A program made the translations under genes and the position numbers. Under the pieces are notes generated by a model. The model was given only the letters and a program-made list of their open reading frames with translations. It was not told the origin of the DNA and made no database searches. This document shows, piece after piece, positions 3,298 to 29,477 of a stretch of DNA of 29,477 nt. Source of the DNA: a virus. The DNA is taken from IMG/VR virus record IMGVR_UViG_3300009537_000121, positions 1 to 29,477 of that record; one strand, 5' to 3'. The stretch's first letter is position 1. Each line of letters starts with the position of its first letter.

Positions 3298-3677
3298 TGG
3301 CACGGAGACACTGGCATCCTAAAGATACGGTCGATGCTCATTGGTATGACAAACATTGGGCATTGGCTCTCACGCCCGCGCCAGAGAGCCATTGGGCACA
3401 AAAGCACTTTGTCGGCCAGCACTGGCATGACACGCACTGGCTTGGCACCGAACCGCCGCTTATCGATGTCGGGGCGGCGATCTCGTGGACTCGTGGTGGT
3501 GTGGTTCCTGTGAGATACCTTGTAGGCCAGACGCGGAACGTCGTTCCTGTGGAAACCGTTGGCGCGTGGGACATTGGCGTTGTCCCAGTGAAGGAATATG
3601 TTGGACCAGCTAACGTGGTGCCTGTACGCGAGGCGCCCACCGAAACGCCGCGCGTTAAAGTGGTGAAAACGCAATGA
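3297..3677 (+). CDS. His-Trp-repeat protein with four VVPV motifs, 126 aa
   Basis: The ATG at 3297 overlaps the upstream TAA. The first 50 residues contain six His-Trp dyads plus one His-Phe (HWHPKD, DAHWYDKHW, ESHWAQKHF, QHWHDTHW). The second half, about residues 67-112, repeats the motif VVPV four times, each within a context like G-VVPV-x-x-x-VG. No signal peptide or membrane segment is present. I have seen short HW-rich repeats in other phage virion-region proteins but know no assigned function. Aromatic stacking, metal binding or membrane-interface insertion are guesses. The gene overlaps the glycosyltransferase that follows by ATGA. Confidence 0.75.
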   Translation: MARRHWHPKDTVDAHWYDKHWALALTPAPESHWAQKHFVGQHWHDTHWLGTEPPLIDVGAAISWTRGGVVPVRYLVGQTRNVVPVETVGAWDIGVVPVKEYVGPANVVPVREAPTETPRVKVVKTQ

Positions 3678-4318
3678 TCGTCACTGTGAAGGTTGGTGAC
3701 AAGTACGGTCCTGAATACGTCAATAGATTGGCGCGGGCGGTACTTACGCATACGATGTCAGGCGTGGGCTTCCTTTGTTTGACGGACGATCCCAAGGGAA
3801 TCACCTGTGCAACAGCCCCAATTGAGACCAGCGATCCGGGATGGTGGGCCAAACTCGTACTTTTCAAGCCACATCCCGCGCTTGCGGGTTCCCGTGTTGT
3901 GTTCATGGACCTCGATACTGTGATCGTCGGTAACATCGACTTCTTGTTCGACTACGATGGTCCATTTGCCATTCTACGTGATTTCTACGTGCCGACTGGA
4001 TTCGGTAGCGCGATAATGTCAATCGCGCCTGGGTTTGGTCGCTCTGCTATCTGGGACGCCTTTCGCTACCGCGCACAACACTATATCAAAACGATGCATG
4101 GCGATCAGGACTTGATCCGTTGTGTGGTCCCTCGTGCTGATCTATGGCAAGACATGTTTCCCGATAAGATTGTTAGCTACAAGGTGCATTGCACAAAGAT
4201 CGTACCGGCAGGTGCTCGTATCGTGTGTTTTCATGGGGAGCCTAAGCCGCACGATCTTCCCGAGGGACACTCGTTGAGACAAGTGTGGGAGGATGGGCGT
4301 GTACCTGTTACCAACTAG
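3674..4318 (+). CDS. Glycosyltransferase, GT8-like (GT-A fold)
   Basis: The 214-aa protein carries the signs of a nucleotide-sugar glycosyltransferase close to family GT8: FMDLDTVIVGNID at residues 77-89 with the metal-binding DxD (D79, D81), HGDQD at 142-146, and a C-terminal CFHGEPKPHD at 185-194, matching the H-x-G-x-x-K end motif that contacts the diphosphate. It lacks a signal peptide and should act in the cytoplasm. ATG 3674 is coupled to the previous gene by ATGA. The substrate is unknown. Lying between virion genes, it may glycosylate a particle protein; modifying DNA or host surface sugar precursors is possible but less suggested by position. Sugar donor cannot be read from sequence. 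Confidence 0.85.
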   Translation: MIVTVKVGDKYGPEYVNRLARAVLTHTMSGVGFLCLTDDPKGITCATAPIETSDPGWWAKLVLFKPHPALAGSRVVFMDLDTVIVGNIDFLFDYDGPFAILRDFYVPTGFGSAIMSIAPGFGRSAIWDAFRYRAQHYIKTMHGDQDLIRCVVPRADLWQDMFPDKIVSYKVHCTKIVPAGARIVCFHGEPKPHDLPEGHSLRQVWEDGRVPVTN

Positions 4319-4964
4319 AGGACGCCCAGCAGGCTTAGCGAGGTTTGCGGCTGCGTATGTAAAAACCGACGCCGTCATGCGCGTTTTGGTCATCATGGAT
4401 GAAGACGATTCGACATTGCCGGAGTATCGCAAGCTTGCGCTGCCAAAGAATTGGCTTCGTCTCTACACACCATCCGAGCCACAAGGCGTCGGTCCCAAAC
4501 TAAACCATGCCTTTGCATTATTTCATCACGAGCCGTTCTACGGTTTGGTCTCGGACGATGTTGTTCCGCAAACCAATGGTTGGGATACCATACTAGCGGG
4601 CGCTGCGGGCGCCTGGAATGTGGCGTGGCCTGACGATACGATCCAGCGTGAAAAGCTGTGTACCCATCACGTTGTCGGCGGCGACCTTGCACGTGCTGTT
4701 GGCTGGTTTGCGCTACCAGGTTTGCGCGCAATCTATGGTGACAACGCGTGGATGCACATTGGCAGCGAGATTGGGCGTCTACATTACCGCGCTGATGTGG
4801 TTTACGATCACTTGCATTGGTCAGTTGGCAAAGCACCTTACGATGCAAGTTATGAGAGTCACAAGCTTTGCCGTGATGATCGGATCGTGTTTGAGACTTG
4901 GCAACAGGCGCCCGCTACGCGCGAGTGGCTAGGCGACCTGCGAGGAATGTTAAATGGCAAGTGA
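4293..4964 (+). CDS. Second glycosyltransferase-like protein (GT2-like, GT-A fold)
   Basis: The 223-aa product overlaps the preceding glycosyltransferase by 26 nt. Its N-terminus (VYLLPTRGRPAGLARF) resembles the first strand and loop of GT2-type enzymes. MDEDDS at 35-40 and LVSDDVVP at 85-92 (D88, D89 as a DxD-like metal site) follow in the expected order. NGWDTIL at 95-101 and the H-rich stretch around 125 (HHVVGGD) would line the acceptor side. There is no signal peptide or membrane segment, so it is a soluble cytoplasmic enzyme. Tight coupling with the GT8-like gene suggests they work together, for example adding two sugars in sequence. Activity and acceptor are unproven. Confidence 0.7.
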   Translation: MGVYLLPTRGRPAGLARFAAAYVKTDAVMRVLVIMDEDDSTLPEYRKLALPKNWLRLYTPSEPQGVGPKLNHAFALFHHEPFYGLVSDDVVPQTNGWDTILAGAAGAWNVAWPDDTIQREKLCTHHVVGGDLARAVGWFALPGLRAIYGDNAWMHIGSEIGRLHYRADVVYDHLHWSVGKAPYDASYESHKLCRDDRIVFETWQQAPATREWLGDLRGMLNGK

Positions 4965-13200: not shown

Positions 13201-14136
13201 ACGAATCAGATGTCGTTCCGAACGGGCGCCGATCTAATTGACATCGTTCAAGGTGTATCGCGTGGTGAAGATTGGACCGGACGTGGCCTCAAGACGCTGA
13301 TGAAGCCAGTAACGACTGTGGCAACGTTTGGTCCGCTAGGCACACGCATTCGGCAGGCACGCGATCCGGTGCTCCGTGGTGCCCGCTCGTTCTACGAGGA
13401 CGTTGCAGCTAAAAGTCCATGGTCCTCCAAATCAGCATTTCCGTTGCGTGATGCTTACGCTGACCCAATCATTCCACCACAGCCAGTAGGTACGTCATGG
13501 ATGGGTTTCTTCCAGCCAGCGTGGCCGCGCTATAAGCCCCCCACGACAGATAGGATCAAGTTGGAGGGCGAGCGTCTGGAAGTCAAGATGCCACGGGTGC
13601 CACCAGGTATTCGTGGTAACGTGGACCCAGATTTTGATATCTCAGCGCCACGGCCGGGCGATAGAATCCCGGTGCCGTTGACATCGGCGCAACAGGATCA
13701 GATTGCAACAGTGTTTCGCAATCTGTTCAGACATCCGGAGTTTGGCATCGAGAAGCAACTGCTCGATAAGCCAGAATATACGATGCAGCGCAGCCAGCAA
13801 GGCGTTATGGAGCGGACACCAATTCCGCAGCAGCGTGAAGTATTCGAAGGTGCGATGCACAAGTATATGAATCTGGCAACGCAAGCAGTTATCGCGGCCA
13901 CGCCAGAGCTTGCAGAACGCGTGCAACGTGCTGAGGTTGCTACTGGCATTCCCAAAGTGTTGCCAAGCGATCGCCCAGGCATGCTAGAGCAAGTTGAAAC
14001 CGACATCAATTTGTTCAAATCTCTTACGGAGCGTGAAGTCCAAAACTTGCACAAATATGGCGTGTTCGAAGGTACGGACATCGTCGATCCAACGCAGCCG
14101 TCGAAGTCTACAATAGAACTGGAGATTCGTAGATGA
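10294..14136 (+). CDS. Large ejection-type internal virion protein D-like (T7 gp16-like), 1280 aa
   Basis: The 1280-aa length is near that of T7 gp16 (1318 aa) and the gene is placed as gp16, before the tail fibre. It is mainly helical, with hydrophobic stretches (about 90-125, 645-670 and 865-890) that could cross or contact membranes and a very long Ala/Glu/Arg coiled coil at about 205-255. At about residue 830, HFPFFKNMINTLKWSW resembles the PF-x-x-N-x-x-K pattern found in large phage ejection or polyvalent proteins. The lytic transglycosylase domain that T7 gp16 carries at its N-terminus is not visible, so wall degradation at entry must lie elsewhere or not be needed. ATG 10294 overlaps the previous stop. 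Confidence 0.75.
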   Translation: MSTVLPYTEKQRRLQELSVDDINQTYHDGIINGAQRKQLLIEKAHATTAGLLEKHGYLKAIWAVNSKNVMHGWDNIVEAVTSDVEDEDSLKEMYYGGLFLFGAVQMFLAPINAIEEVNGQEVENMLLWVGAPPGLARFANFVTQLGSAFIPMGTAAKGFAKGVQKAGELVGKGVAKAETAVPKAQRIADLVMSREQVVARDALIEGLRVEGVANAERKVLDAAEAVAAAEQRAALKAERAARREAERVKTEGVPVAEGVSDDVFKAMANRYWKESQELKSKIKASAPGSAEEAAARDAFGEWRQQAWVREYARLKGERDTATYIKLFDKSEASKVPATKFEAATEAGRALTSEFKLPANLAGAKPRYNIGEKSFEPIFESDLDKALYIVAQTNKSVRDADYMRLLQQHFPDMTENAIRRLGYVNVRAALKRIAGSAEPGMINIPDLGLDVAKAAKPLTQTELGIRFERARAKLMRTISRGHAEAELPDLLARFGIDPSMVTRGTFSTKQLYVHLKALEPEVAKLHQLAKAALTGDYADGVAFAKYATELFGTHLRHEGAARIVYDKKFLDLLTYWAPEAVARGDIANAMKVFAADIVNLAERAKGAGEAGTSTLGMFVFGNQRMFTTLGSKAWPVARELYDNLLLTFAWAPAFVGNSTALAVEVLERTAGGMFTLDKARGALAREGLYEMKGMALATGDAFKAFWNVMRHHFVPGATRFTEMEMRNVIPGALGTTARTPRDMTIAMDELTKVIAKRGNAYADALRDSERLAKPANKASFFARRVLHPTDETMLRGQQLAETIAFQNALGHFGKIATRAAQWGPLHLHFPFFKNMINTLKWSWYRTPGLQLFQAKLYRDILAGGVEADRAVGMLTISNLWAMLVYDLAKEGFIMGPGPVDPALNAAWRATNEPYAVKTPDGGHIPISNMEPGSTPVGLIAAFVEIADSLDEATHQQLGMAILYAVMNAFLTNQMSFRTGADLIDIVQGVSRGEDWTGRGLKTLMKPVTTVATFGPLGTRIRQARDPVLRGARSFYEDVAAKSPWSSKSAFPLRDAYADPIIPPQPVGTSWMGFFQPAWPRYKPPTTDRIKLEGERLEVKMPRVPPGIRGNVDPDFDISAPRPGDRIPVPLTSAQQDQIATVFRNLFRHPEFGIEKQLLDKPEYTMQRSQQGVMERTPIPQQREVFEGAMHKYMNLATQAVIAATPELAERVQRAEVATGIPKVLPSDRPGMLEQVETDINLFKSLTEREVQNLHKYGVFEGTDIVDPTQPSKSTIELEIRR

Positions 14137-15590
14137 AAGTCGCAGACGTCACTCCACGGAACAACTACACTGGTAATGATTCTGTTGTCGACTTCGCCTA
14201 CGGGTTTGCCATCCTCGATCAAGACGATATCGAGGTTTTGCTGGATGGCGTAGTGCAAACGATAACTACTAACTACACGGTTAGTGGCGTTGGAAACGAG
14301 GCGGGCGGCACGGTGACCATGGTTACGGCGCCCGCCACCGGTGTCAAGGTTGCGTTGCTGCGCAAGCAACCCTTGGAGCAGCAGTCGTCGTATATAGCAG
14401 CGGAGGAGTTTCCAAACACTCGCGTTGAAAATGATTACAGCAAGGTGTGGATGCGCTTGCAGCAGCATGCAGAGTGGCTGGGGCGTTGCTTGGCGCTCGC
14501 CAAGAAATCGCTCCTGAGTACCATTGACGTTGACGATCCTACAGATGGCAAGTATATGTACTACGACAGCGCATCGGATAGTTTCAAATGGGGTACGCTG
14601 TCTAGTGCTGGCACGTTACCTGATCCGGTAACGGTTGCGAAGGGCGGTACGGGCGCTACTAGTGCGGCGGCTGCGCGCACCGCTCTTGGCGCCGCGTCCA
14701 CGTCACATAAGGACACACACAAGAGCGGTGGAACCGACGAGTTGACAGCTACTGACGTTCTGGAAGCGCCAACCAAGCGTTTACGTGAGACTGGCGGCCC
14801 AACGATACTTGCAATGGGCGCGGTTGCTGATGGTGAGCTACTGCAGCGTAATGGCACTGGTATCATTGGGGCAGCGGCGTCTGCGCTACTAACAACGAGT
14901 AGCGTCATTGGCCTTAAAGGAGTTAACACGCCCGCAACGCCAAATACGAAATATGACATCTCAGCTGACTATGTTGCGTTGCGTAATGCGGGTTTCACCA
15001 ACGTCGTTTCAAAGGTTAATACTGGTACGCTGACGTGTGACTTGGGAACAAGTGGCGCGGCCAACGGTCTTGACACTGGCGCGCAGGCATCTTCTACTTG
15101 GTATCACTTCTACTTTATCTGGAATGGCTCTACACTAGCGAGTCTGGCGAGTCTTGCGGCGCCCTTGACAGGACCGACATTGCCAAGTGGTTATACACAT
15201 TGGGCATATGCGGGGGCGGTTTACTCTAACGCATCCACGCAGCTTCTCGTAACGTACATGCGTGGTAGTAAAGAATTCTATCGTAGCGCCATCGCGGTTG
15301 TTACGAGTAGTGCTGCTACAGGACCAACGTTGATTAACGTCTCCGCGACGATTCCTCCCAACGCGCTAACAGTGTTTGGATCGTTGCATTCATTAACGGG
15401 TGTTGGCGGCGAGATAAAGAGCATTCAATTCGTTTCGGGATCTGACGCGGTTTTGGACAATGATCGTTCGTCGCTCAATCTAGCTTACGAGGTACCAAAC
15501 ATCTCGCAAACGATCTATATGAATGATTCTGGCGGACATGTCAAAGACGTGTGGGTCGAAGGCTTCTCTGTTCCCAATGGAGGCGAGTAA
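14133..15590 (+). CDS. Tail fibre with T7-type N-terminal anchor, 485 aa
   Basis: Residues 1 to about 130 match the T7 tail-fibre N-terminal domain: NNYTGNDSVVDFAYGFAILD, D-D-IEVLLDGV, NYTVSG, VALLRKQPLEQQSSY and NTRVENDYSKVWMRLQQ, the region that binds the tail. Next are two linker motifs common in phage fibres, VAKGGTGATSAAAARTALG (about 168-186) and SHKDTHKSGGTDELT (about 190-205). The C-terminal half has GLDTGAQASSTWYHFYFIWN and TGPTLPSGYTHWAYAGAVY, a beta-rich module seen at many fibre ends. It would bind the host receptor. The start is coupled to the ejection protein by ATGA. Confidence 0.9.
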   Translation: MKVADVTPRNNYTGNDSVVDFAYGFAILDQDDIEVLLDGVVQTITTNYTVSGVGNEAGGTVTMVTAPATGVKVALLRKQPLEQQSSYIAAEEFPNTRVENDYSKVWMRLQQHAEWLGRCLALAKKSLLSTIDVDDPTDGKYMYYDSASDSFKWGTLSSAGTLPDPVTVAKGGTGATSAAAARTALGAASTSHKDTHKSGGTDELTATDVLEAPTKRLRETGGPTILAMGAVADGELLQRNGTGIIGAAASALLTTSSVIGLKGVNTPATPNTKYDISADYVALRNAGFTNVVSKVNTGTLTCDLGTSGAANGLDTGAQASSTWYHFYFIWNGSTLASLASLAAPLTGPTLPSGYTHWAYAGAVYSNASTQLLVTYMRGSKEFYRSAIAVVTSSAATGPTLINVSATIPPNALTVFGSLHSLTGVGGEIKSIQFVSGSDAVLDNDRSSLNLAYEVPNISQTIYMNDSGGHVKDVWVEGFSVPNGGE

Positions 15591-17758: not shown

Positions 17759-18946
17759 TCATTTAAGAAACTCGATAGCAGTCTCGCTACCAACCGTCTT
17801 AGTTTTCAACGTACCGTCCTGTACTAGTGTAGAAACTAGCTTGTCGAAGTCTTCCGCCCCCATGCCCATATGTTTAAGCAACACTCTACGTGTGGTCAAC
17901 CCACCAATGTTTTGCATGTAGCGAATTAGTTTCGCGCGGCTTTGTTCGTACTGCGAGCTACCGCTCCACACCACCACGCGCTTGACCTCTGGAAGTTGTA
18001 ACTCGATTAGCTTTATGGCATGGGCCATTTGTTTCGCATCGACGACTAGGTCGTCACGTTGGGCCATTGATAACAAGAGTGCGATACGGAGGGCGGTAAC
18101 ATGGCAACGATGATAGAAGGCGTCGGTTTCAGGGTCGCGGGTGTCGCGACTCGATAGCGCTTCATACCACACATCATAAAGCTGTTGCGCATCGGGCGCA
18201 ACGGTGGCTTCGCCTTGTAAATTGCCAACGCGCTGCAAGTCGTGGATTAGATATTCGCGTAGCGCCCGCCGCTGTAACGTAGCCTGGGCATGTTTCCAAC
18301 CTGGGTTGTTCTTACGTCTGGTGTTTTCGACAACCCATATCAGTCTGCCTGTGAGTCCTCCGATTGCATCCTCAGGCAAGACTTTAAGATTATGTGGATC
18401 AGTTCCGCCAAGCAACACTGGATATAGATTATGGAGGCGTACCAAAGAGTCACGCACTGTAGTATGATCGTAGACCGTCGGGCACCCGTAGGTCCGTGTA
18501 AGAAAGATAACCATTTGAGACGCTCGTGTCCGCTCGTAGCTAAATAGATTAGCGACTTCATCAGCAAAGATTGCAACATCAGAACGGAGCTCCTCAACAA
18601 TTTTGTCCTCCTTCACTATTGACACTTTATGATTTAGGATCTTTATGAGTCCCTGGCTTGTCATTGAATCACGCATGATTCGGATGTCGGGGATCGCCTC
18701 CAATAACAAATCGCGACCGTGGTCCATCGCCACAGACTTGCGAACCTTGGCGCTCTCGGCGACGATGATAACGTACAGATTGGGGAATATTAATCCATAC
18801 TCCATGTCGAGGAACACTTTGCGGCGACTAGCACAGGCGAGTAGGCAAAGTCCGATCCAGCGATGTAGGGACTCAGGCGACTCCAAATCTGCCGTATAGT
18901 CTAGGTAGCCAGCAAGCCAGTCACCTAGCAAGCGCTTTTCTGGCAT
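17759..18946 (-). CDS. DUF3987-like phage primase/helicase ATPase, 395 aa
   Basis: The protein resembles DUF3987-type replication ATPases. N-terminal LGDWLAGYLDYTADLESPESLHRWIGL leads into YVIIVAESAKVRKS (residues 58-71), the P-loop position, and VAIFADEVANLF at 124-135 gives Walker B with D129-E130. LVRLHNLYPVLLGGTDP at 168-184 and GGLTGRLIWVVE at 197-207 are sensor and arginine-type segments of this family. Residues 335-395 look like a winged helix. The P-loop is altered: glycines of GxxxxGKS are replaced, giving A-E-S-A-K-V-R-K-S. It would unwind DNA for the split polymerase encoded just before it. Its ATG 18946 abuts the polymerase stop; it is the last leftward gene. Confidence 0.75.
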   Translation of the reverse strand: MPEKRLLGDWLAGYLDYTADLESPESLHRWIGLCLLACASRRKVFLDMEYGLIFPNLYVIIVAESAKVRKSVAMDHGRDLLLEAIPDIRIMRDSMTSQGLIKILNHKVSIVKEDKIVEELRSDVAIFADEVANLFSYERTRASQMVIFLTRTYGCPTVYDHTTVRDSLVRLHNLYPVLLGGTDPHNLKVLPEDAIGGLTGRLIWVVENTRRKNNPGWKHAQATLQRRALREYLIHDLQRVGNLQGEATVAPDAQQLYDVWYEALSSRDTRDPETDAFYHRCHVTALRIALLLSMAQRDDLVVDAKQMAHAIKLIELQLPEVKRVVVWSGSSQYEQSRAKLIRYMQNIGGLTTRRVLLKHMGMGAEDFDKLVSTLVQDGTLKTKTVGSETAIEFLK

Positions 18947-19858
18947 TTATAGTTTGTAATCTTTTAAATCATCGCCGCCCCATGTTGGACCAGTCTTGAA
19001 ATCAACTGGGATTATCATTGTCTCATCCTCGCGAACCTGGATTGGAGTCTCTGCGGTAGCGCGCCACGTCGTAGCGGCCCATCGAACTAAATCCGGATCG
19101 TTAGGTATGACCATGCCTCCGGCATCATGAACGTTTAGGCGAATGTCCATGCCTGACCATTGGATTGCTTGTGGTGATCGGGCGCCCGCGTCACGTAGCG
19201 CTCGCCAGCGATCCCAATTCTCCTTTCCATACCATGTCCACCATTGATCTCGCAGCGATTCGCTAGCGTCGTCACGAAACACGTTGCCGCATTTCACGAT
19301 AGTCCTGTTAAGCATGCTTGCTACCGTGCATTGCGGGAACGTCGCGTAGGCTACGCGAAGCAGGTCGTCGTTAAGAATGTCGTAGAAAATCTTGCGGAAG
19401 CGTACGGGTTTGGGCATCCACAACATGCGATCCTTGCGAATGCATTTCTCGATCCAAGCTTGGTAGTTGGTTTTGATCTCTGGAAACAACGTGTAGTAGA
19501 TTGCCTTGATTGCTTCGGCTTGCTTCTCGGGCAGACCAGTACGCAACGCGAAACGCGACGGCCCCTCGCCATAGTTTCCAGCATGGACCGCCCGCTTCGC
19601 GATCTCTCTTTCTTCGTCGCCCTTAACATAGGCATTGGAAGCCTTGCTCCTAAACAGCGGCTTGCCACTGTCCGGATTTACAGGCATAACTATGCTAGGC
19701 GTTTTCTGCACGACATCGGCGATCAGCTCGCACACCTTCAGGTGGACATCAACGCCTTCTTGGTACCATTGCTTGAGTTTAGGGACCGGGCCGCGCCAAG
19801 CCACCACTCTAGACTCCGCTTGATTGTAGTCTGCGAAAAGCCATACATTAACGAGCAT
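18947..19858 (-). CDS. DNA polymerase family A, C-terminal piece (motifs A, B and C)
   Basis: This 303-aa protein supplies the catalytic half missing from the gene at 20806-22551. From ATG 19858 it reads MLVNVWLFADYNQAESR: motif A with catalytic D10 and E15. Motif B is REIAKRAVHAGNYGEG (R84, K88, H92, Y96; the Phe/Tyr of the O helix is His). LLRVAYATFPQCTVASML carries the conserved Gln of the palm. Motif C is LNVHDAGGMVIP at about 241-252: catalytic D245 is kept but the usual Glu after it is Ala. Upstream in-frame GTG codons at 19891, 19882 and 19870 are alternative starts; ATG 19858 overlaps mazG by 11 nt and has GAAGG close by, at poor spacing. It must act with the other piece. Confidence 0.85.
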   Translation of the reverse strand: MLVNVWLFADYNQAESRVVAWRGPVPKLKQWYQEGVDVHLKVCELIADVVQKTPSIVMPVNPDSGKPLFRSKASNAYVKGDEEREIAKRAVHAGNYGEGPSRFALRTGLPEKQAEAIKAIYYTLFPEIKTNYQAWIEKCIRKDRMLWMPKPVRFRKIFYDILNDDLLRVAYATFPQCTVASMLNRTIVKCGNVFRDDASESLRDQWWTWYGKENWDRWRALRDAGARSPQAIQWSGMDIRLNVHDAGGMVIPNDPDLVRWAATTWRATAETPIQVREDETMIIPVDFKTGPTWGGDDLKDYKL

Positions 19859-20159
19859 CGCCTTCGCCACGAAGCGTGTCACGGAGCGCACGCGATTTCA
19901 GCTTTGCCAGATTGTGCCGGGCGACTTCGTTCAGAGACACGTTCAGATCGCTAGCGATAGCGGCGACGTACCATAGGCAGTCGCCTAGCTCGTCGACTAG
20001 CGCCATGCGATCGTAATGATTGTCTCGTATGATTTTCTTGACTTTGTTACATAATTCGCCAGCTTCGCCAGCCAGCCCTAACGCGGGATAGATAATCTTG
20101 TAGTTTTCTGGATAGACAGCGGTTTTGGCAGCGGCTCCTTGGTAGTCCCATAGGTTCAT
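19848..20159 (-). CDS. MazG-like nucleoside triphosphate pyrophosphohydrolase, 103 aa
   Basis: GLAGEAGELCNKVKKIIRD at residues 28-46 and DELGDCLWYVAAIASDL at 56-72 give the MazG-type metal site (E32, E35, E57, D60). The protein is one single MazG domain, as in phage versions. It hydrolyses (d)NTPs to monophosphates and PPi; phage MazG proteins are proposed to clean non-canonical nucleotides or shift host alarmone or nucleotide pools. ATG 20159 has GGAGG at 20170-20174, ten bases away, so the start is firm. It lies between the two polymerase pieces on the same strand and its 3' end overlaps the second by 11 nt. Confidence 0.85.
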   Translation of the reverse strand: MNLWDYQGAAAKTAVYPENYKIIYPALGLAGEAGELCNKVKKIIRDNHYDRMALVDELGDCLWYVAAIASDLNVSLNEVARHNLAKLKSRALRDTLRGEGDAR

Positions 20160-20187
20160 TGCGATATTTCCTCCAGAAATACAAGGT

Positions 20188-20217
20188 TACTGCATACGAC
20201 GGGATTTCGTAGCAGTA
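20188..20217 (-). promoter_or_regulatory. Strong inverted repeat upstream of mazG
   Basis: TACTGCATACGA (20188-20199) and TCGTAGCAGTA (20207-20217) pair over 11 bp with one bulged A and a 7-base loop. It lies in one of the few non-coding gaps, after the 43-aa gene and about 13 bases before the mazG ribosome site. There is no clean U-run after it on the minus strand, so it is not a classic terminator; an RNA-processing, attenuation or operator site is possible. Confidence 0.6.
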
Positions 20218-20227
20218 GGGGCGTGTA

Positions 20228-20359
20228 TTATTCATTTCGTTTTGGCGCGTCGCGCCATCTTTCGCATAACACGTAATGGCATACCACTTGCCAAGGCGCG
20301 TATAGCAAAATGTCGAGCGAAGTTATGCGTCGGCCACAACGGCCACATATTTTTATCAT
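20228..20359 (-). CDS. 43-aa cysteine-pair (zinc-knuckle-like) miniprotein
   Basis: ATG 20359 lies four bases past the stop of the DUF1599-like gene and gives a 43-residue product beginning MIKICGRCGRRI. It has C5-x2-C8 and a second cysteine set at C27 and C32, so four cysteines could bind zinc. No convincing ribosome site is seen; reinitiation after the upstream stop is likely. The reading frame ends at TAA 20228-20230, just before the hairpin. It is too short for certainty, and the function is unknown. Confidence 0.5.
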   Translation of the reverse strand: MIKICGRCGRRITSLDILLYAPWQVVCHYVLCERWRDAPKRNE

Positions 20360-20363
20360 TGGT

Positions 20364-20909
20364 TCATTGTTTTACTGGAGTCGATCCGAAGGCAGTGCGC
20401 TCTAGGCGAGCGTGGTTGTCTGCGTTCATGCATCGGATGATGTTCATGTAGACTGCGATGTCTGCCAGGGATTCATCGGACGGGCGACGTCCAACATTAA
20501 GATCCCACATGATACGGTCGAAGTGTTTCAGCGCATATAGTATGGCGACTGCGTCTGGGCTGTAATGTGGGAAGCTAGGATACAAACGCATGATCGCGGC
20601 GCCACGTTCAAAGTTACCCAACGGATCACCACCACCAGCGTAGCCTGCATTCTTCTCCGAATGTAAGGCTAGCTGTTTCAGTGTTAGGTCCGCGAACATC
20701 GGATGTCCATGTGGGAACAGCTCACGTAACAGCTGTGGAAGTGACTCAATTGTCATTTGGTCGGATAGCTCTTCCAGCTTCCTGTGGTTTTGTGCAAGGC
20801 GTTCTTTAACCTGGAAGGAAGAGAGATCGGGCAATGCCTTGTCTTGGGAGATTCTGGAGGTTTGCGCCCGAGCCGAGGATACTTTCCGACGACGATAGCC
20901 GCGTGCCAT
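20364..20909 (-). CDS. DUF1599-like protein (nucleotide-modification-associated type), 181 aa
   Basis: Conserved-looking elements lie at residues 83-154: HSEKNAGYAGGGDPLGNFERGA (K86, N87, Y90; GDPLGNF 94-100), ALKHFDRIMW, and DESLADIAVYMNII (E147, D150, Y154). This matches the DUF1599 pattern, a family linked by comparative genomics to nucleotide or base modification in phages; its reaction is not settled. Residues 1-34 are Arg/Ser-rich and are read out of frame over the end of the polymerase N-terminal gene. The start is nonetheless firm, because a full AGGAGG precedes ATG 20909. The neighbours mazG and polymerase suggest a nucleotide-pool role. Confidence 0.7.
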   Translation of the reverse strand: MARGYRRRKVSSARAQTSRISQDKALPDLSSFQVKERLAQNHRKLEELSDQMTIESLPQLLRELFPHGHPMFADLTLKQLALHSEKNAGYAGGGDPLGNFERGAAIMRLYPSFPHYSPDAVAILYALKHFDRIMWDLNVGRRPSDESLADIAVYMNIIRCMNADNHARLERTAFGSTPVKQ

Positions 20910-22551
20910 TTGTTCCTCCTATCTTGTAGTGACAGTGAATGTGATTCTGCTCATCGAGCGGTTGCTCCAGCACATCGTTGATCAAATCTTGGAGTTGTTT
21001 CATCTTGATGAATTTGTGTAGCGTAGGATCTGCGTGCTTGGTTGCGAGCATTTGCAATGTATCTTTGTCGCCAGTGGGCTTGCCAGTTTGGCGATTTAGC
21101 CGTGGTGCGTAGCGTTTGACTTTGTAGAGGAAATGCTGGAGTTGTTGTGGTGAGGCTAGGTTTAGGACGCCCGGGCGCGGCTTTGCGCCTTTGGGAGCCT
21201 TGGTTATGACTTCCAATCCAATCATTGTTCGCAATTCTTTGCGTAGGGTGTCAATGCTAGCTAACGTGTCATCTCGTGCAGCGGCGCGCCGGGCGATGTC
21301 AATTAGCACGCCCTGCCATTCCATATACAAAGTGTGCTCAAATTGCTCTAAGTACTGCTCGACGTAGGTTTGCCACAAGTCGGTGGTTTGCAATTCGGTG
21401 CGCATCTTCATTGCGCACTCGTAAGTCACCATCACGTCCAGTGCGTTGTAACGCCAGAAAACCTCTTCACCAAATTCGGGGCGCCAATGACGCCCCTCGT
21501 CTTTGTAGAACGGCTGATCAGTGTATTGACTAACAATGAAAGCTAGGCCGTGTCCTGGATTGTCGATGTCTCGCTTGCGCTTCGACCATTCGTCGAAAAC
21601 GCCACCAAAGTCAGGGTATAGACAATGATGCATATGCATGGTGTCCATCCCAAGTGGTGTGGGATAGATCCCATAGATCCACGATTTGATCCACTCATAG
21701 CTTGCGTTCTGCGCTATCTTTTTTACCTTTGGATTTTGTAGCAGCGCGCACCACAATTTCCACAGGGCCGCCTCTTCCTCCAACGTCCAATACCGAGAGC
21801 TTCCAACACGACTCAAAGGCACACACAATGCTTCCGTAGCGCTCCAACCAACGCCGAGGCATGTTATGTGTGATCGCCCCTCGTAGTCTATAGATACTTC
21901 CTCTTGCTCGTTTGCTTCCAGCAAGTACTCTCTGGCTGTTTTGAATGATGGTCCAACTATCGCCTGACGAGGTGTCAGTGACATTGCGGGCGACAATGAT
22001 TGTGTGACAGCCCGAGGGACATCTATGTATTTGAATATCGGTAGCCATTTCCATTGGCCGCGGATGAACGAGGCTGGATGCATGGCGGCTACGCATTTTT
22101 GTTTTCTCCCTGATGGGCATGCGATTTCGAATATGGAACCGCGCCACTTTGTGATGCTCCATTTTGATGACGCCCATTTCTGCGTTCTAGACTTAAATGG
22201 CCCAACGTAACCTTCCATTAACAACACGAGAGTTTGGGCGCCCATCACAAGCAAACAATTTGGTTTTACTTCGTCGAGCTCCTGAAATACACGCTGCCTT
22301 TCAGCCTCAAGTATTTCCTTTGGAATAGCATAAAGATCGTTATCGTCCACAAAGAATTCGACGAGATTCGTAACATAGACTTGCGTACGGCCAACTTTGG
22401 CAGACGTCAATGCTTCGTTGAAAATCTTGCCAGACGGCCCAACGAATGGAATGCCATTGGCGATCTCTTGTTTTGCTGGGGCCATGCCTATGGCGGCGAG
22501 GCGCGCGTTGCGGGGGCCGCTAGCGCGGACACGTAGGTTAGTGTGGATCAT
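20806..22551 (-). CDS. DNA polymerase family A, N-terminal piece: UDG-like, 3'-5' exonuclease and first polymerase motifs
   Basis: The 581-aa protein has three parts. Residues 15-180 resemble a family 4-type uracil-DNA glycosylase (GMAPAKQE 22-29, PFVGPSG 35-41, AAMHPASFIRG 155-165), but the iron-sulphur cysteines are not evident. Residues 215-385 are a DnaQ-like proofreading exonuclease: Exo I with D222 and E224, QNASYEW at 281-287 (Glu for the usual Asp), Exo III with Y368 and D372. Residues 400-581 start the polymerase: GVLNLASPQQLQHFLY, TGDKDTLQML, TRLSSSES at 550-557 and NLQNLP at 564-569. It stops after ARSLFLPG, just before motif A, which is encoded at 18947-19858. UDG-PolA fusions are known in phages; the split is the odd feature. 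ATG 22551 is the first start after an in-frame stop. Confidence 0.88.
   Translation of the reverse strand: MIHTNLRVRASGPRNARLAAIGMAPAKQEIANGIPFVGPSGKIFNEALTSAKVGRTQVYVTNLVEFFVDDNDLYAIPKEILEAERQRVFQELDEVKPNCLLVMGAQTLVLLMEGYVGPFKSRTQKWASSKWSITKWRGSIFEIACPSGRKQKCVAAMHPASFIRGQWKWLPIFKYIDVPRAVTQSLSPAMSLTPRQAIVGPSFKTAREYLLEANEQEEVSIDYEGRSHITCLGVGWSATEALCVPLSRVGSSRYWTLEEEAALWKLWCALLQNPKVKKIAQNASYEWIKSWIYGIYPTPLGMDTMHMHHCLYPDFGGVFDEWSKRKRDIDNPGHGLAFIVSQYTDQPFYKDEGRHWRPEFGEEVFWRYNALDVMVTYECAMKMRTELQTTDLWQTYVEQYLEQFEHTLYMEWQGVLIDIARRAAARDDTLASIDTLRKELRTMIGLEVITKAPKGAKPRPGVLNLASPQQLQHFLYKVKRYAPRLNRQTGKPTGDKDTLQMLATKHADPTLHKFIKMKQLQDLINDVLEQPLDEQNHIHCHYKIGGTNGTRLSSSESILGSGANLQNLPRQGIARSLFLPG
20915..20920 (-). 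promoter_or_regulatory. Consensus ribosome site AGGAGG for the DUF1599-like gene
   Basis: AGGAGG five bases before ATG 20909. It is the best Shine-Dalgarno noticed in the window and lies inside the polymerase reading frame, which decides the start and shows the 104-nt overlap is probably real. Confidence 0.8.
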
Positions 22552-22619: not shown

Positions 22620-23093
22620 CTAGAACACGTAATCGCTGACGCCAGAGCGCTGTCGCCCACTGCCTTCGGGGAACTCTTGGTTTTTCACGGTGAACTTACC
22701 GTTGTTCCCGTAGAACGTGGCGATCCAATCCTGCCATGCCGTGCATGACTCGCTGTCGCCCAGGCGCGGGATTGGCATTGCGCCTTTGATGCCAAAGGCC
22801 CGGCAGAAACGCTCAAAGGAAACGCCCCGCGCCATCGCGCGCAGACGCTCCGCCTTTGGCATGCTCTCATCCACCGCCACTGGTAGCGGCAGATAGTTCT
22901 GCATCACAGTGAAGCCTTCGAAGTCACCTTCGAGGACTTCCACCTGGACTGCGGAGAACATGCCGCCGCGCTTGTCGAGCTTAGGCGACAGCGTTACCCG
23001 CATGAGCGACCCAGTGTAAACCTGGGACTCATCCATCGGTGGTGTGTCGATCGGTAAATCGCCGCTGCCAACTGGGATCTGGCCTTCGCTCAT
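22620..23093 (-). CDS. DUF669-like DNA-binding/recombination accessory protein, 157 aa
   Basis: MRVTLSPKLDKRGGMFSAVQVEVLEGDFEGFTV at about 31-63 and the later FERFCRAFGI resemble DUF669, a phage family encoded beside a RecA-like P-loop ATPase, as here. The likely role is a single-strand DNA-binding or annealing partner. The C-terminal tail (GSGRQRSGVSDYVF) is flexible but lacks the acidic end of classical SSB. ATG 23093 has GGAG seven bases before it. The gene ends 69 nt before the polymerase. Confidence 0.6.
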   Translation of the reverse strand: MSEGQIPVGSGDLPIDTPPMDESQVYTGSLMRVTLSPKLDKRGGMFSAVQVEVLEGDFEGFTVMQNYLPLPVAVDESMPKAERLRAMARGVSFERFCRAFGIKGAMPIPRLGDSESCTAWQDWIATFYGNNGKFTVKNQEFPEGSGRQRSGVSDYVF

Positions 23094-23126: not shown

Positions 23127-23357
23127 CTACGTGACGTCGCTTCCTCCTCTCTTGTTGGTTTGCTCGTCGAGTTCGTGTTTGATTTCCTCTCGCATGATTT
23201 CCATTGCCAGACGTAGCATTCGCTGCATCTCGATGTCGATGAATTTGGCGAGGGCGCGGGCGGCTGCGCCGGACATACGAACATTGTAGAGGCGCGTCAG
23301 CGACTCGACGATTGCTTCGCCCTCGGTTAGATTGACGTGCGGGCCGTCTTGTGTCAT
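23127..23357 (-). CDS. Small helical protein, 76 aa
   Basis: The start chosen is ATG 23357: it overlaps the stop of the ATPase gene as ATGA and has AGAAGGA about seven bases upstream; a longer reading to 23456 lies fully inside the ATPase gene. The product is helical and amphipathic, with many Met, Arg and Glu (IDIEMQRMLRLAMEIMREEI) and a Lys/Arg/Ser tail. No family is recognised. By position it may assist the ATPase and the DUF669-like protein in recombination. Confidence 0.65.
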   Translation of the reverse strand: MTQDGPHVNLTEGEAIVESLTRLYNVRMSGAAARALAKFIDIEMQRMLRLAMEIMREEIKHELDEQTNKRGGSDVT

Positions 23358-24181
23358 TTCCAAATCCTTCTGAAGTCGCAAGGATACTCGACCTCGGTTA
23401 GCATGAACGATGTGCGCAGTGCTCGACGCCCGTCCGGCTTCACCCTGCATTTCCACACAGGTTTCTTATCTTCCATTTCAACGTGTAACCAGTAGTACTC
23501 GTCCGCTTGGGCGCCGATCAAATCGCCGAAGGCGCCGTCTATCGACGCCCACACTTTCACATCCTGCGTCCCAAGGTATGTTCGCTGTTGGGCGGTGCCT
23601 TCACCACTGGCGACCATCTCCACTCTTACACCTGTGGTGCGGTCGCCAGGCTCCTCCTTAAAACGTTCATGCACTGTGACAATTAGGTCCCAATCGTTAG
23701 CGATACAAATGTCTCGCATGACGCTGAACGTGTCCATCCAGCCTATCTTCAAGGCGTTCCATTGATCGAACGTGAACTTCGAGCGTTTGGCGTCGAACAT
23801 AATCATGGATTTCAAGTGCTCGTTTAGCAACGTGGCACTATCCACGAGCACGGTGCCGAATGGCGTTGCTTTGTGAATCTCAGGCAAACGATAAAACTGT
23901 TCCGCCCATAGAACCCATCCCGAAGGGCGGGTGCTAGGACCAACCTTGGTCAAGCCAGTGGTCAAGGCGCGAATGCGTGATGTGATGTTTGAATCATCTA
24001 TAGGTTCCTGCAACTCCCACACCACCAGCTCGCCCTTGGCAAGCAAGGGCTCGGCCCACGCTGCGCTTCGCGTTTTCCTGTCAATGTCCATGACGTAGAT
24101 TGGGCGTCGTGGTGCCGTGGCGCATGCCATTAGTGACTTCCCCGACCCAGGTTCGCCTTGCAACACGACTGTCCTAGCCAT
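23354..24181 (-). CDS. RecA-like P-loop ATPase (AAA_24 type), 275 aa
   Basis: GEPGSGKS at residues 9-16 is a perfect Walker A, right at the N-terminus as in AAA_24 phage ATPases. GTVLVDSAT at 109-117 supplies Walker B (D114). VMDIDRKTRSAAW at 30-42 and VTVHERFKEE further on fit strand 3 and sensor positions of this group. Such proteins occur next to DUF669-like genes and Cas4/RecB-like nucleases in phages and are thought to work in DNA recombination or repair during replication. The gene overlaps the 76-aa gene by ATGA and is itself overlapped at its start by a 54-codon gene. Confidence 0.85.
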   Translation of the reverse strand: MARTVVLQGEPGSGKSLMACATAPRRPIYVMDIDRKTRSAAWAEPLLAKGELVVWELQEPIDDSNITSRIRALTTGLTKVGPSTRPSGWVLWAEQFYRLPEIHKATPFGTVLVDSATLLNEHLKSMIMFDAKRSKFTFDQWNALKIGWMDTFSVMRDICIANDWDLIVTVHERFKEEPGDRTTGVRVEMVASGEGTAQQRTYLGTQDVKVWASIDGAFGDLIGAQADEYYWLHVEMEDKKPVWKCRVKPDGRRALRTSFMLTEVEYPCDFRRIWK

Positions 24182-24338
24182 TGTCTACCTTTCTATGTTC
24201 GGGAAACACCTTCAATGCTTCGATCAACTGCATTGTTAGATTCATAGCAGTGGTGTAATCCCATAGGAACAATGGTTCGCGTCCAGTTAGGTTGACGATT
24301 ATTAACGGCGGTGACACATGCGCATCAATTCTATGCAC
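24174..24338 (-). CDS. 54-aa conserved-position protein between nuclease and ATPase
   Basis: This frame fills the whole gap between the nuclease and ATPase genes. It starts at GTG 24338, which overlaps the nuclease stop, has GGAAGGG eight bases upstream, and ends at TAG 24174-24176, eight bases into the ATPase gene. The product reads like a folded protein: LIIVNLTGREPLFLWDYTT as a beta section, then an amphipathic helix (AMNLTMQLIEALKVF). No family is recognised. Overlaps at both ends and the ribosome site support it as a real gene. Confidence 0.65.
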   Translation of the reverse strand: MHRIDAHVSPPLIIVNLTGREPLFLWDYTTAMNLTMQLIEALKVFPEHRKVDNG

Positions 24339-25338
24339 CGATGATTCCCTTCCATGGTTGCCATGGTTTCTCTACGAAGCGGGTTTGCAGGAATGCATCG
24401 CGTTGGGCGGCATCGTTTAGCACGCAAACATCACGGTAACGGCACCCACCAAACATGTGACAGGCGCCCGGCGCGCTTCGCGGCCACCTGATTGCGCCAG
24501 ATAGCAACCACTTTGCGTACTCATACGCATGTTCATGGGCGTCCCACAGAAACTCAGTGATGTCGCTCATGTGCCGCGTAGTTGGCTGCCGTTTGAAATC
24601 TTTGTCGATGTCAACGCCCCACATCATGAAATGCTCTTTTTCGGCGCGGCGCATATCTGCCGCGCGGTCGCTCACGAACACGCAATCCCAAATGCATTCG
24701 ATGATGTCAGGAAACATCCGACGTGCGAACACGAAGTAGCCCGTGACCTGATGATTCGGCTTACATTGCTTAATGAATTGCGACAATGCTTCGGTCGTTG
24801 TTTTGGTTTCACGCATCACAACGCGCTTAGTCATCTTGTGACGCATGATTTTGTCAATGTAGCCAACGTAGATCACAGTCCATCCTTGGAATTCGCAGAG
24901 TGGATAATGGAAGCCAACCTCGACTAGTGGGGCGCCGTGTTCATCTAGCATTGTTTCGTATGGTTCGTTGGCCCATCTAGTGATGTAGGCTTCCACCAAC
25001 GCAAGGCCTCGCGCGAGCGAGCGCCGCTCTTCGACTTCCAAGTCGATTGGCAAATCCGCGCCTTCGATGGCGAGATCGTGTAGGAATGCAGCTTTGGCTG
25101 TTAACAATGGTGGTTTCGTCGGTGGCTCCGCGATCCATGCACCGTTAGGTGCGCGGCGCCCCCCAGCGCAGGCATCATCATACGCTGCAATCGCAGCATG
25201 GAATGCGTGCCCAAAAGCAAGGGATTTGTCTGGCGTAGCCGCCCGCCAATGCGCAAGGCGTGCTTTCTCCTTGCACGATTGGAATGTTGCCAACGTGCTG
25301 TAGTCGACGTAGATTAGCTTACGATCATGGTCTATCAT
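24331..25338 (-). CDS. PD-(D/E)XK nuclease with four-cysteine cluster (Cas4/RecB-like), 335 aa
   Basis: YSTLATFQSCKEKARLAH at residues 13-30 is the entry motif of RecB/Cas4-like nucleases (C22). FGHAFHAAI at 42-50 supplies the His, GYID at 159-162 the metal-binding Asp (D162), and RETKT at 176-180 the E-x-K (E177, K179). CHMFGGCRYRDVC at 293-305 adds three cysteines, so C22, C293, C299 and C305 should hold a [4Fe-4S] cluster. It would be an exonuclease processing DNA ends for phage recombination. ATG 25338 is chosen over GTG 25407 because it is coupled by ATGA to an upstream 59-codon gene. Confidence 0.85.
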   Translation of the reverse strand: MIDHDRKLIYVDYSTLATFQSCKEKARLAHWRAATPDKSLAFGHAFHAAIAAYDDACAGGRRAPNGAWIAEPPTKPPLLTAKAAFLHDLAIEGADLPIDLEVEERRSLARGLALVEAYITRWANEPYETMLDEHGAPLVEVGFHYPLCEFQGWTVIYVGYIDKIMRHKMTKRVVMRETKTTTEALSQFIKQCKPNHQVTGYFVFARRMFPDIIECIWDCVFVSDRAADMRRAEKEHFMMWGVDIDKDFKRQPTTRHMSDITEFLWDAHEHAYEYAKWLLSGAIRWPRSAPGACHMFGGCRYRDVCVLNDAAQRDAFLQTRFVEKPWQPWKGIIGA

Positions 25339-25514
25339 TTCGCCGTCTCGGCGAGGGCGGCGGCGTGCTTCTGTTGCCACGAAGTCACGTGTGTATCGAG
25401 CATCCACACTTTATGTTTGTGAATCTCATTTATTTCGTGCAGCGCCTCTCGCAGCCGCGCGATCTCCTCCCGGGCATGGGCGAGGGCACAGCGGGCACAC
25501 TGCGCGTCAGGCAT
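25335..25514 (-). CDS. 59-aa CxxC plus coiled-coil protein
   Basis: ATG 25514 has GGAG seven bases before it, and the frame ends with TGA overlapping the nuclease ATG (ATGA). The product opens with MPDAQCARCALAH (C6-x2-C9), followed by a charged amphipathic helix (REEIARLREALHEINEIH) and a short Ala-rich tail. A single CxxC could bind zinc as a dimer. The family is unknown; coupling suggests it is made together with the nuclease. Confidence 0.65.
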   Translation of the reverse strand: MPDAQCARCALAHAREEIARLREALHEINEIHKHKVWMLDTHVTSWQQKHAAALAETAK

Positions 25515-27010: not shown

Positions 27011-27237
27011 GGACCATCCTTGCTGATCCTATCAGCAGTGGCGCGGTCGATCCATTCGCCCATGAACAGCGTCACATACACTGCTTTGCCACAGCCGGCG
27101 CAGAATCTGTCACGCTGCATGAGTTGCGCCCCGCACTCACAGCGCGGATTCTCTACGAGGCGGGCGCCATCCTTCGAGCAGAATTTCTCAGTGTCAATGG
27201 ACATCGTCGCGTTGTAACACTTGATGCATGTTTTCAT
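27007..27237 (-). CDS. Double zinc-ribbon protein, 76 aa
   Basis: TCIKC at residues 3-7, FC at 19-20, CECG at 33-36 and CAGCG at 46-50 supply seven cysteines for one or two zinc sites. CSKDGARLVENPRCECG followed by RFCAGCGK is a typical zinc-ribbon pair. It is coupled to the SprT-SNF2 gene by ATGA. Bacterial SprT proteins carry a zinc ribbon after the protease, which the fused gene lacks; this neighbour might act in its place, but that is only a suggestion. Confidence 0.7.
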   Translation of the reverse strand: MKTCIKCYNATMSIDTEKFCSKDGARLVENPRCECGAQLMQRDRFCAGCGKAVYVTLFMGEWIDRATADRISKDGP

Positions 27238-29114
27238 TTGTTCACCGCCTTGTCAATGGATTTTTGCTTCTTGATGGTTAGCTTGGCCTTGTACGTGTCC
27301 AAGCTATCCTCGAACACTAGATGTTGGATCAGCATTGACTTGGCGCCGGTTTCGCCGCGACCTATGCCATGCGCGCGATCTTCCGCCTGGGTCATGATGC
27401 CGGGGACCCAATCCTCTTCAACGAATATGACAGTGGAGGAACCTTGCAAGCTGTAACCTTGTGCGAGAGAAACGCCCGCAACGAACAGTCTGCAATCGTC
27501 ATCATTGTTGAAACGATCACTAGCTTGCTGCGTCGCAGACGCTTGGTCACCAGTGCCGCCAAGCAACAACACACTGTTTGGTTTGAAACGATCAGCTATC
27601 GCTGTCAGAACATCGCGATGATGTCCGAACACGATCACCTTCTCCCGTGCCTCTAGCGCATTTTCGATGTGTTCGTAGATCATCGACAACTTGGCGCGTG
27701 CGATGCGATGCGCGATCTTCGCCATTTCCTCAAACGCATAGCGTCGCGTCTGCGTTAGCTCTTCGATGATGGACTGCCAATCGAGGTCGTCGCCCGCGAC
27801 GTCGCCTTCGTTTTTGATCGCATTGATTAGCGCCACTGCCTTAGAGTCAGGCCCACCCTGCCATGTCTGGAACAGCTTCTTCTCTTCTTCGATTAACGCC
27901 CGTGTCGCATCGTCGACTTCAAACTCCACGACTTGACGACGCTTCTTAGGTAGCTCCGTCAAGACATCCTTTTTGATTCGTCGGAGCATAATAGTGCTTC
28001 GCAGAATTGAATTAAGCCGTGGAAGATTTCGTCCAAATTTTGTGTTGCCTCTAGCTCCATACGTAGCTTCGAAGCTTGCGTAGGTTGGCCAATTCTCACG
28101 GTCAAGGTAGTGAATGAGTGGGAACAACTCGTAAGGATAGTTAACAATTGGTGTACCTGTGATGATGATAGATTTGTCACCCGATATTGCATAGCAAGCT
28201 TCGCTCCGCTTCGCTGACGGATTCTTTAGGTAGTGACCTTCATCGAAAATCACCAGGCCCCAACGGCGTGTTTTTAGTGCAGCCGCCCACTTGACGGCCG
28301 CCTCATAATTCATGATAACGTAGTCGCCAAACGTGTAGAGTTTGGTGTAGGCTAGCTCTACGTCGAATGGATGCACGCAGAATTGCTCAAGATGGCGTTT
28401 CCAGATTAGCTTGGCGTTGTTTGGACACACAACCAAGATTGACTCTGGTTTGGCTACGTTAATGTAGCCCATGACTTCCACAGTCTTGCCAAGACCCATC
28501 TCATCAGCTAACAGAATGTTGCGTCCGTTGCGTAGCATCCATCGAATGCCATCTAGCTGAAATTGCATTATGTGTACTTTGTGTGCTGCGCAACCATTGT
28601 CTTGTGTGTATCCCTCGCAAGTGGGGTCGCCAACATGTGGCGGCCACGGGATTGCTAGCGCATCGTCATAAATCAAGGCTGGATTGTCATGCGCGAAGCG
28701 CTCTATCGCGTCGGTTATGGCACGGGCTATGTCTGGAGTGAAGTCACTGATTTCATACATTTGTCCAGCGGGCAACGCGCGTGTCATGCCAAGCGCGACG
28801 GCCGCCGCAGTCCAGTGTGGACCATGTTGTTGCGGCTCGGGCCCGATTAGCATGTGCGCTAGCTCATGCACCACAGTACCAGCTAGCTGCAACGCGCTCT
28901 CACGTTGTGTCACAACCATCTCATTGTCGGCGTGTCGCGCCTGCCCGCGTAGGCTAGGGTGAATCCAATCACTGTAGCGCAAGCTTGCGTTTGTCAGGCG
29001 AATGGCTGAAAACTTCTCGTCAAGTTGAATGCGCGTTACCACGGCTTGCTTGATGCAAGCGCTGAAGCGTTCGAGGTCGCCGACATTGGTGATGTTGGCT
29101 TTGTGGTTAATCAT
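27234..29114 (-). CDS. Fusion of SprT-like zinc protease domain and SNF2 helicase, 626 aa
   Basis: Residues 1 to about 125 contain VVHELAHMLIGP with the third ligand in QHGPHW: H83, E84, H87 and H97, the HExxH...HGPxW/F pattern of SprT/SPRTN proteases. Residues 180-600 are a full SNF2 ATPase: LLADEMGLGKT (201-211), LVVCPNN, FDEGHYLKN (290-298), IITGTP (317-322), VIVFGHHRDVL, GVSLAQGYSLQ and QAEDRAHGIGR (576-586). In motif VI the usual HRIGQ is HGIGR, so the second arginine is displaced. SNF2 motors move along DNA and SPRTN cuts proteins cross-linked to DNA. Joined, they could strip and degrade DNA-bound proteins. The role is inferred. Confidence 0.85.
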   Translation of the reverse strand: MINHKANITNVGDLERFSACIKQAVVTRIQLDEKFSAIRLTNASLRYSDWIHPSLRGQARHADNEMVVTQRESALQLAGTVVHELAHMLIGPEPQQHGPHWTAAAVALGMTRALPAGQMYEISDFTPDIARAITDAIERFAHDNPALIYDDALAIPWPPHVGDPTCEGYTQDNGCAAHKVHIMQFQLDGIRWMLRNGRNILLADEMGLGKTVEVMGYINVAKPESILVVCPNNAKLIWKRHLEQFCVHPFDVELAYTKLYTFGDYVIMNYEAAVKWAAALKTRRWGLVIFDEGHYLKNPSAKRSEACYAISGDKSIIITGTPIVNYPYELFPLIHYLDRENWPTYASFEATYGARGNTKFGRNLPRLNSILRSTIMLRRIKKDVLTELPKKRRQVVEFEVDDATRALIEEEKKLFQTWQGGPDSKAVALINAIKNEGDVAGDDLDWQSIIEELTQTRRYAFEEMAKIAHRIARAKLSMIYEHIENALEAREKVIVFGHHRDVLTAIADRFKPNSVLLLGGTGDQASATQQASDRFNNDDDCRLFVAGVSLAQGYSLQGSSTVIFVEEDWVPGIMTQAEDRAHGIGRGETGAKSMLIQHLVFEDSLDTYKAKLTIKKQKSIDKAVNK

Positions 29115-29477
29115 TTCTCTTCACCGTGTAGAAACTCGGCCAAGATGTCTGCCTTGGTCCGCCCGCTCGCGTCACGCACGTTTCTAAATTGTGCGTCATC
29201 GCGAACATGGCGCCCGCACTGTGGCGCCCCGGCAAACATCTCCATTGTCGCTTGCTTGCACACACAGCAGATGCGATAGCCTCGTGCTAGCTTCTCGCGT
29301 AGCGAGAGAGGTTGCTCGGCTATCACCAACGGTGTCAACATCATCCATTCCATTGACAGACGTTTGAATTCCTCGTCCAACAAGCGCAGCCTCTCGCGTA
29401 GCAATTCCATGTCTAGCGATAGCTCACGCTGACGCGATAGGATTGCCTCCCGGCGCGCAAGCGCGCTATCGACGGCG
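29111..29477 (-). CDS. Coiled-coil protein with cysteine motif (partial)
   Basis: The frame is open to the window edge, so the gene begins outside unless ATG 29410 is used; the coiled-coil composition continues unbroken upstream of it. About 55 residues of heptad-like Leu/Glu/Arg (RRE, LLRERLRLLDEEFKRL) lead to RICCVCKQAT (C-x2-C) and PQCGRHVRDD. The Cys set could bind zinc. The C-terminus (GRTKADILAEFLHGEEK) is helical. It is coupled to the SprT-SNF2 gene by ATGA. No family is recognised. Confidence 0.6.
   Translation of the reverse strand, partial: AVDSALARREAILSRQRELSLDMELLRERLRLLDEEFKRLSMEWMMLTPLVIAEQPLSLREKLARGYRICCVCKQATMEMFAGAPQCGRHVRDDAQFRNVRDASGRTKADILAEFLHGEEK

Follow-up and report, generated by a model that had tools for sequence, protein, structure and literature searches.

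The window, by which we mean the whole stretch of DNA analyzed here, has 29,477 bases, constitutes one IMG/VR record and represents a fragment of a T7-like podovirus. T7-like tail and internal virion genes lie on its plus strand, and the phage origin assumed in the first-pass annotation is supported; upstream of the tail genes are two adjoining glycosyltransferase-like genes (3674-4964, plus strand; PHROG 1962 and 14945). The minus strand carries a replication and recombination operon, headed by a gene for a 626-residue protein (27234..29114, stop included) in which an N-terminal SprT-like zincin domain is followed by an SNF2 motor. The other genes of the operon, all on the minus strand, code for an exonuclease (24331..25407; PHROG 1218), a Sak4-like ssDNA annealing ATPase (23354..24181; PHROG 124), a 157-aa protein with no function assigned (22620..23093), a UDG joined to the N-terminal piece of a family A DNA polymerase (20806..22551; PHROG 17), the C-terminal piece of that polymerase (18947..19891), and a primase/helicase-like protein (17759..18946; DUF3987, PHROG 14296).

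The fusion gene, identified from its reading frame and domain matches, occupies one stop-free frame that runs from an ATG at 29114 to a stop codon ending at 27234. A ribosome-binding-like sequence, GGTGAAGAGAA, sits before the ATG, which overlaps the stop codon of the upstream gene (29111..29477, minus strand; truncated at the edge of the window). Around the SprT/SNF2 junction, no possible start is accompanied by a comparable sequence. The two parts should therefore be made as one chain, in agreement with the earlier description of a single polypeptide. A mis-called start is ruled out by the ribosome-binding-like sequence preceding the ATG, and an assembly artefact by four related contigs that carry the same fusion at 44-47% identity in the SprT part and 61-71% in the SNF2 part. 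The fusions that we have identified fall into two lineages. Clade A proteins have the arrangement SprT-Zn ribbon (CxxC...CxH)-SNF2 and are 668-741 aa long (e.g. L109, L116 and L112), with many of the contigs being about 46 kb. Clade B consists of the window protein together with those of L221, L222, L226 and L227, which are about 610-650 aa long and have no recognizable ribbon.

Several lines of evidence indicate that residues 1-142 (28689..29114, minus strand) are an SprT-like domain. First, the segment contains HELAH at residues 83-87 (28854..28868), predicted to supply two metal ligands and the catalytic Glu, and HGPHW at residues 97-101 (28812..28826), with the predicted third ligand H97 and a conserved W101; both lie at the residue numbers originally given for them. 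Six positions (H83, E84, H87, H97, W101 and G109) are invariant in an alignment of 10 diverse phage proteins and again in 9 closer proteins, and the His triad, whose absence from homologues had been named as grounds for abandoning the assignment, is thus present throughout both alignments. Second, a leave-one-out HMM built from 9 other phage SprT-like proteins, with the window protein excluded, matches residues 69-113 at 31 bits, and PHROG 6361 matches the domain at E 1e-5. This and similar PHROG families have no function name in PHROG, and we term them SprT-type because SprT-like proteins and fusions match them. Third, when a profile of 10 phage SprT-like proteins including that of the window is compared with the PDB, 10 sequences are matched up to E 1 and all 10 are zincins, among them human SPRTN (6MDX, E 0.02), projannalysin, MJ1213 and Wss1, although every one of these matches is weak. 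Finally, when residues 1-145 were shuffled 200,000 times, the pattern HExxH-x4-12-H-x2-4-W arose in just 77 cases, and a chance motif is ruled out by these shuffles together with the leave-one-out HMM, the invariant residues and the recurrence of the motif in every distinct fusion (see below).

The Pfam family PF10263 scores 17.5 bits (E 0.0038) against the window protein, below its gathering cut-off of 25.6, a score passed by six of the seven clade A fusions scanned (up to 44.3 bits). The HMM comparison proposed in the first-pass annotation thus falls short with PF10263 and succeeds with the leave-one-out and PHROG profiles, and its SNF2 counterpart is strong; taken with the invariant residues, these matches uphold the assignment of SprT and SNF2 domains. 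No Zn ribbon is recognizable at the C-terminal end of the SprT core in the window protein, where a linker (residues 143-178; 28581..28688, minus strand) bearing a C-x8-C-x2-H element, retained by some relatives, stands instead; the aligned clade A proteins all have the CxxC...CxH ribbon, without variation. The closest relatives of the window SprT domain are standalone phage SprT proteins (L223-L225 and UOF78112).

The SNF2 motor, a member of the SF2 helicase family, spans residues 179-626 (27237..28580, minus strand) and is matched above cut-off by PF00176 (124.8 bits, E 4.6e-36) and by PF00271 (Helicase_C; 25.6 bits, E 1.5e-5), while the PHROG 62 DNA helicase family matches it at E 1e-81. Motifs I (DEMGLGKT, 28482..28505), II (DEGH, 28233..28244) and III (TGTP, 28149..28160) are readily identified. 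The full set of SNF2 motifs described earlier holds for these three, but motifs V and VI are non-canonical: motif V has the unusual form SLAQGYSLQ, and in motif VI (QAEDRAHGIGRG, 27354..27389) the second arginine is replaced by glycine (HGIGRG in the window). The replacement is common to all clade B members, in which, as in L001 (a relative discussed below), motif VI reads QAEDRxHG(I/L)GRG; both motif VI arginines are invariant in all 12 aligned clade A proteins. Because the second arginine is absent and motif V is odd, the clade B motor may be weak or regulated.

The fusion is not confined to the window. Uniqueness was suggested by IMG/VR scans with the full protein and with the N-terminal domain alone, and was overturned when an alignment of SprT domains served as the query, which gave at least 22 IMG/VR loci, mostly SprT-SNF2 fusions. 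An alignment of those loci in turn gave at least 379 stretches encoding relatives, the best 80 of which are nearly all full-length fusions. At least 99 fused ORFs are present in IMG/VR phage contigs, at least 79 of them distinct over the last 400 residues, both counts being lower bounds, and the pattern HExxH-x4-12-H-x2-4-W is kept in all 79. The two halves have near-equal median omega values in 18-19 close clade A pairs (0.083 for SprT and 0.093 for SNF2), and both are therefore under equally strong purifying selection in clade A. One clade A locus (L097, 3965-6051) has SprT and Zn ribbon-SNF2 in two overlapping frames, which could mean that the gene is split, that a frameshift site is present or that the sequence contains an error.

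Searches of GenBank phages, plasmids and GTDB returned no fused gene, and the GenBank and genome searches are of a kind that could miss diverged fusions. Two clade A fusions compared by tblastn with 50,697 GenBank phage records matched none over 80% of the query; a clade B query matched three records to that extent, the best of which, Thermus phage MN1, was read and lacks HExxH. A scan of 84,980 bacterial and archaeal genomes for the clade A pattern yielded no fusion and one relative, on a Pacearchaeota MAG contig (L199, JACPXY010000055.1, 439-2049), which combines SNF2 with a Zn ribbon of the SprT type and lacks a protease domain; it is the only clade A relative found in the genome collection, and its contig is possibly viral. 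No long SprT frame was found in 279 archaeal genomes of one phylum. Of two plasmid matches considered as candidate SprT fusions, one (H99) is an ordinary SNF2 protein without HExxH and the other (H290) is an unannotated SNF2-like stretch adjoining a SWIM-finger gene. Standalone SprT-like genes are present in more than 1000 GenBank phage records, and most SNF2-bearing phages lack the fusion. The open-access literature, to which our search was confined, yielded a single paper on SprT with SNF2 (PMC7824862), which reports standalone SprT in jumbo phages and phage SNF2 proteins and appears to describe no fusion. The first-pass annotation knew of no described phage system of this design, and the open literature searched agrees; it is nonetheless no one-off, and the survey of phages that the annotation suggested reveals a recurrent gene of at least two lineages in IMG/VR. 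The domains are known, and it is their recurrent combination that is new.

The two lineages do not share a single fusion event. In the SNF2 tree, clade B groups with the proteins of Thermus phages phiLo and MN1 and with three plasmid proteins, apart from clade A, and a single fused clade is rejected (p-AU 4.7e-7); this is a quick tree, whose support values are taken with care. In the SprT tree, built on 127 columns, clade B groups with standalone PHROG 6361-type proteins with support of 100/99, and a single fused clade is again rejected (p-AU 0.0024). One common origin of all fusions is ruled out by both domain trees, and since each of them rejects one fused clade, the simplest reading is that SprT and SNF2 were joined at least twice independently. 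The SprT domain can also be lost. In one phage closely related to that of the window and nested within clade B (L203/L001; IMGVR_UViG_3300036861_000286), the SNF2 gene still precedes the exonuclease but contains neither an SprT domain nor a remnant of one, which we interpret as a natural loss.

The order SprT-SNF2, exonuclease, Sak4, UDG/PolA, primase is conserved in 10 genomes, namely the window, clade A genomes G002, G003, G004 and G006-G010, and clade B genome G012, which also keeps the gene for the 157-aa protein. Differently derived clade A and clade B fusions therefore occupy the same position, before the same four replication genes, and this shared position together with the repeated fusion provides the strongest argument for cooperation between the two activities in DNA replication or recombination. 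The UDG/family A polymerase gene of the window (18947-22551, minus strand) is split in two just before polymerase motif A, with a MazG-like ORF (19848-20159) and a 181-aa ORF (20364-20909) between the pieces. In G012 the split falls in the same place and leaves a gap of 281 nt (L250:11862-13619 and 13901-14794), in G002 the polymerase is a single ORF, and in G009 it is apparently in two pieces (L217, 12992-16300), with the break lying elsewhere (G2 polymerase residues 540/541). A group I intron was considered as the cause of the split and discarded, there being no Rfam match.

The protein shares with SPRTN/Spartan, Wss1 and GCNA the zincin core of HExxH and a third His, and DNA-bound substrates are likewise predicted; relative to these proteases the SprT Zn ribbon is missing in the window and present in clade A. 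The same SprT domain occurs in the standalone phage SprT-like proteases (PHROG 6361, 6445, 1006 and 3768; e.g. UOF78112, an actinobacteriophage SprT-like protease), with clade B closest to the PHROG 6361 proteins, but these are short, several have their own Zn ribbon, and none has an SNF2 motor. Conversely, the PHROG 62 phage SNF2 helicases (those of Thermus phages phiLo and MN1, Rhodothermus phage RM378 and Caulobacter phages) have the motor without SprT. Those of phiLo and MN1, at about 35% identity, are among the nearest to the window SNF2 outside clade B, and they and the Azospirillum protein carry at the N terminus a short domain that we read as putatively HARP-like. ArdC, a mobile-element protein, resembles the fusion in combining a zincin domain with DNA binding, but its DNA-binding domain binds ssDNA, it has no motor, and its third ligand is Glu.

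The closest functional precedent is in human cells, where the helicase FANCJ and SPRTN are two separate proteins; FANCJ is loaded onto DNA, moves along it into a crosslinked protein and, by unfolding that protein, enables its cleavage by SPRTN (PMC12279946). In the phage proteins a motor is part of the same chain as the protease, and from this precedent our preferred reading is that proteins crosslinked to phage DNA, or bound to it very tightly, are removed. The SNF2 translocase would carry the SPRTN-type metalloprotease along duplex DNA until it met proteins crosslinked to, or tightly held on, replicating or recombining phage DNA. It would then remodel or partly unfold them and deliver them to the active site of the attached SprT domain, where H83, H87 and H97 would surround the metal and E84 would act as the base. 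There the proteins would be degraded to peptides, opening the way for polymerase and recombinases. Translocation, proteolysis and the nature of the substrates are all what we infer from anatomy, conserved catalytic residues, repeated independent fusion and operon context, with which a roadblock-clearing machine fits. We put the chance that the fusion is a translocase-coupled protease removing such proteins from phage DNA at about even. Counted against it are the odd motifs V and VI of clade B, the absence of a Zn ribbon in the window, the many phages in which SNF2 or SprT-like genes occur unfused, and the loss in L001, which keeps its SNF2 gene at the same place without SprT, so that proteolysis by the fusion appears not to be indispensable.

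The main rival, which we nevertheless regard as unlikely, is that the fusion serves counter-defense or host take-over, patrolling incoming or replicating DNA and cutting host nucleoid, restriction or DNA-scanning defense proteins. Because standalone SprT-like proteases are patchily distributed among phages, it has been proposed that they cut host proteins (PMC7824862), and the metalloprotease domain of the plasmid antirestriction protein ArdC can be superposed on the SprT domain of Spartan (PMC7213743). Yet the gene heads a conserved replication and recombination module in 10 genomes rather than lying in a variable anti-defense region, and its SprT part is as conserved as its motor. The exonuclease, Sak4-type, UDG/PolA and primase context likewise favors repair of the phage's own DNA or fork maintenance over the host nucleoid proteins and restriction enzymes suggested as targets in the first-pass annotation. 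A narrower form of the motor-protease explanation, quite unlikely in so specific a shape, is that the phage UDG makes AP sites at which proteins become crosslinked and that the fusion clears these adducts; UDG-PolA shares the operon with the fusion in the window and, judged by homology, in each of the other genomes checked, and HMCES adducts formed in vitro at AP sites that a UDG has generated are cleaved by SPRTN acting with FANCJ (PMC12279946). This is co-occurrence only, however, and UDG-PolA may exist in phages without the fusion.

Two further explanations were considered. SNF2 might act on RNA polymerase or in branch migration in the manner of RapA, UvsW or SMARCAL1, with SprT as a regulator that cuts the fusion itself or a partner. 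Jumbo-phage SNF2 proteins have been proposed as UvsW substitutes or RapA equivalents (PMC7824862), and no SprT is present in the SNF2 proteins that, outside clade B, are closest to that of the window (phiLo, MN1 and the plasmid proteins), but the twofold joining of the same unusual partner is left unexplained, and we judge this reading distinctly improbable. We give very little credence to the SprT domain being a non-catalytic DNA- or protein-binding module: the zincin domain of ArdC can indeed be dispensable as a protease, its proteolytic activity not being needed for antirestriction (PMC7213743), but the metal ligands and catalytic Glu are kept in 79 of 79 distinct fusions.

In the fullest form of the motor-protease reading, which we hold more tentatively and at somewhat less than an even chance, the fusion is a self-contained motor-protease for removing crosslinks or roadblocks, which phages put together on at least two occasions in the leading position of a single replication module; it would be a one-chain counterpart of FANCJ-SPRTN and, to our knowledge, the first dedicated phage crosslink-repair protease. 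A gene made at least twice, strongly selected and placed in a replication operon makes it a testable question whether phages clear DNA-bound protein obstacles by proteolysis. It also offers a compact single-chain enzyme for the study of motor-assisted proteolysis, should the predicted proteolysis be confirmed, and a possible tool for stripping protein adducts off DNA. That the fusion was apparently made at least twice, and is found in many uncultivated bacterial viruses, suggests that these viruses have a dedicated tool for clearing stuck proteins from their DNA.
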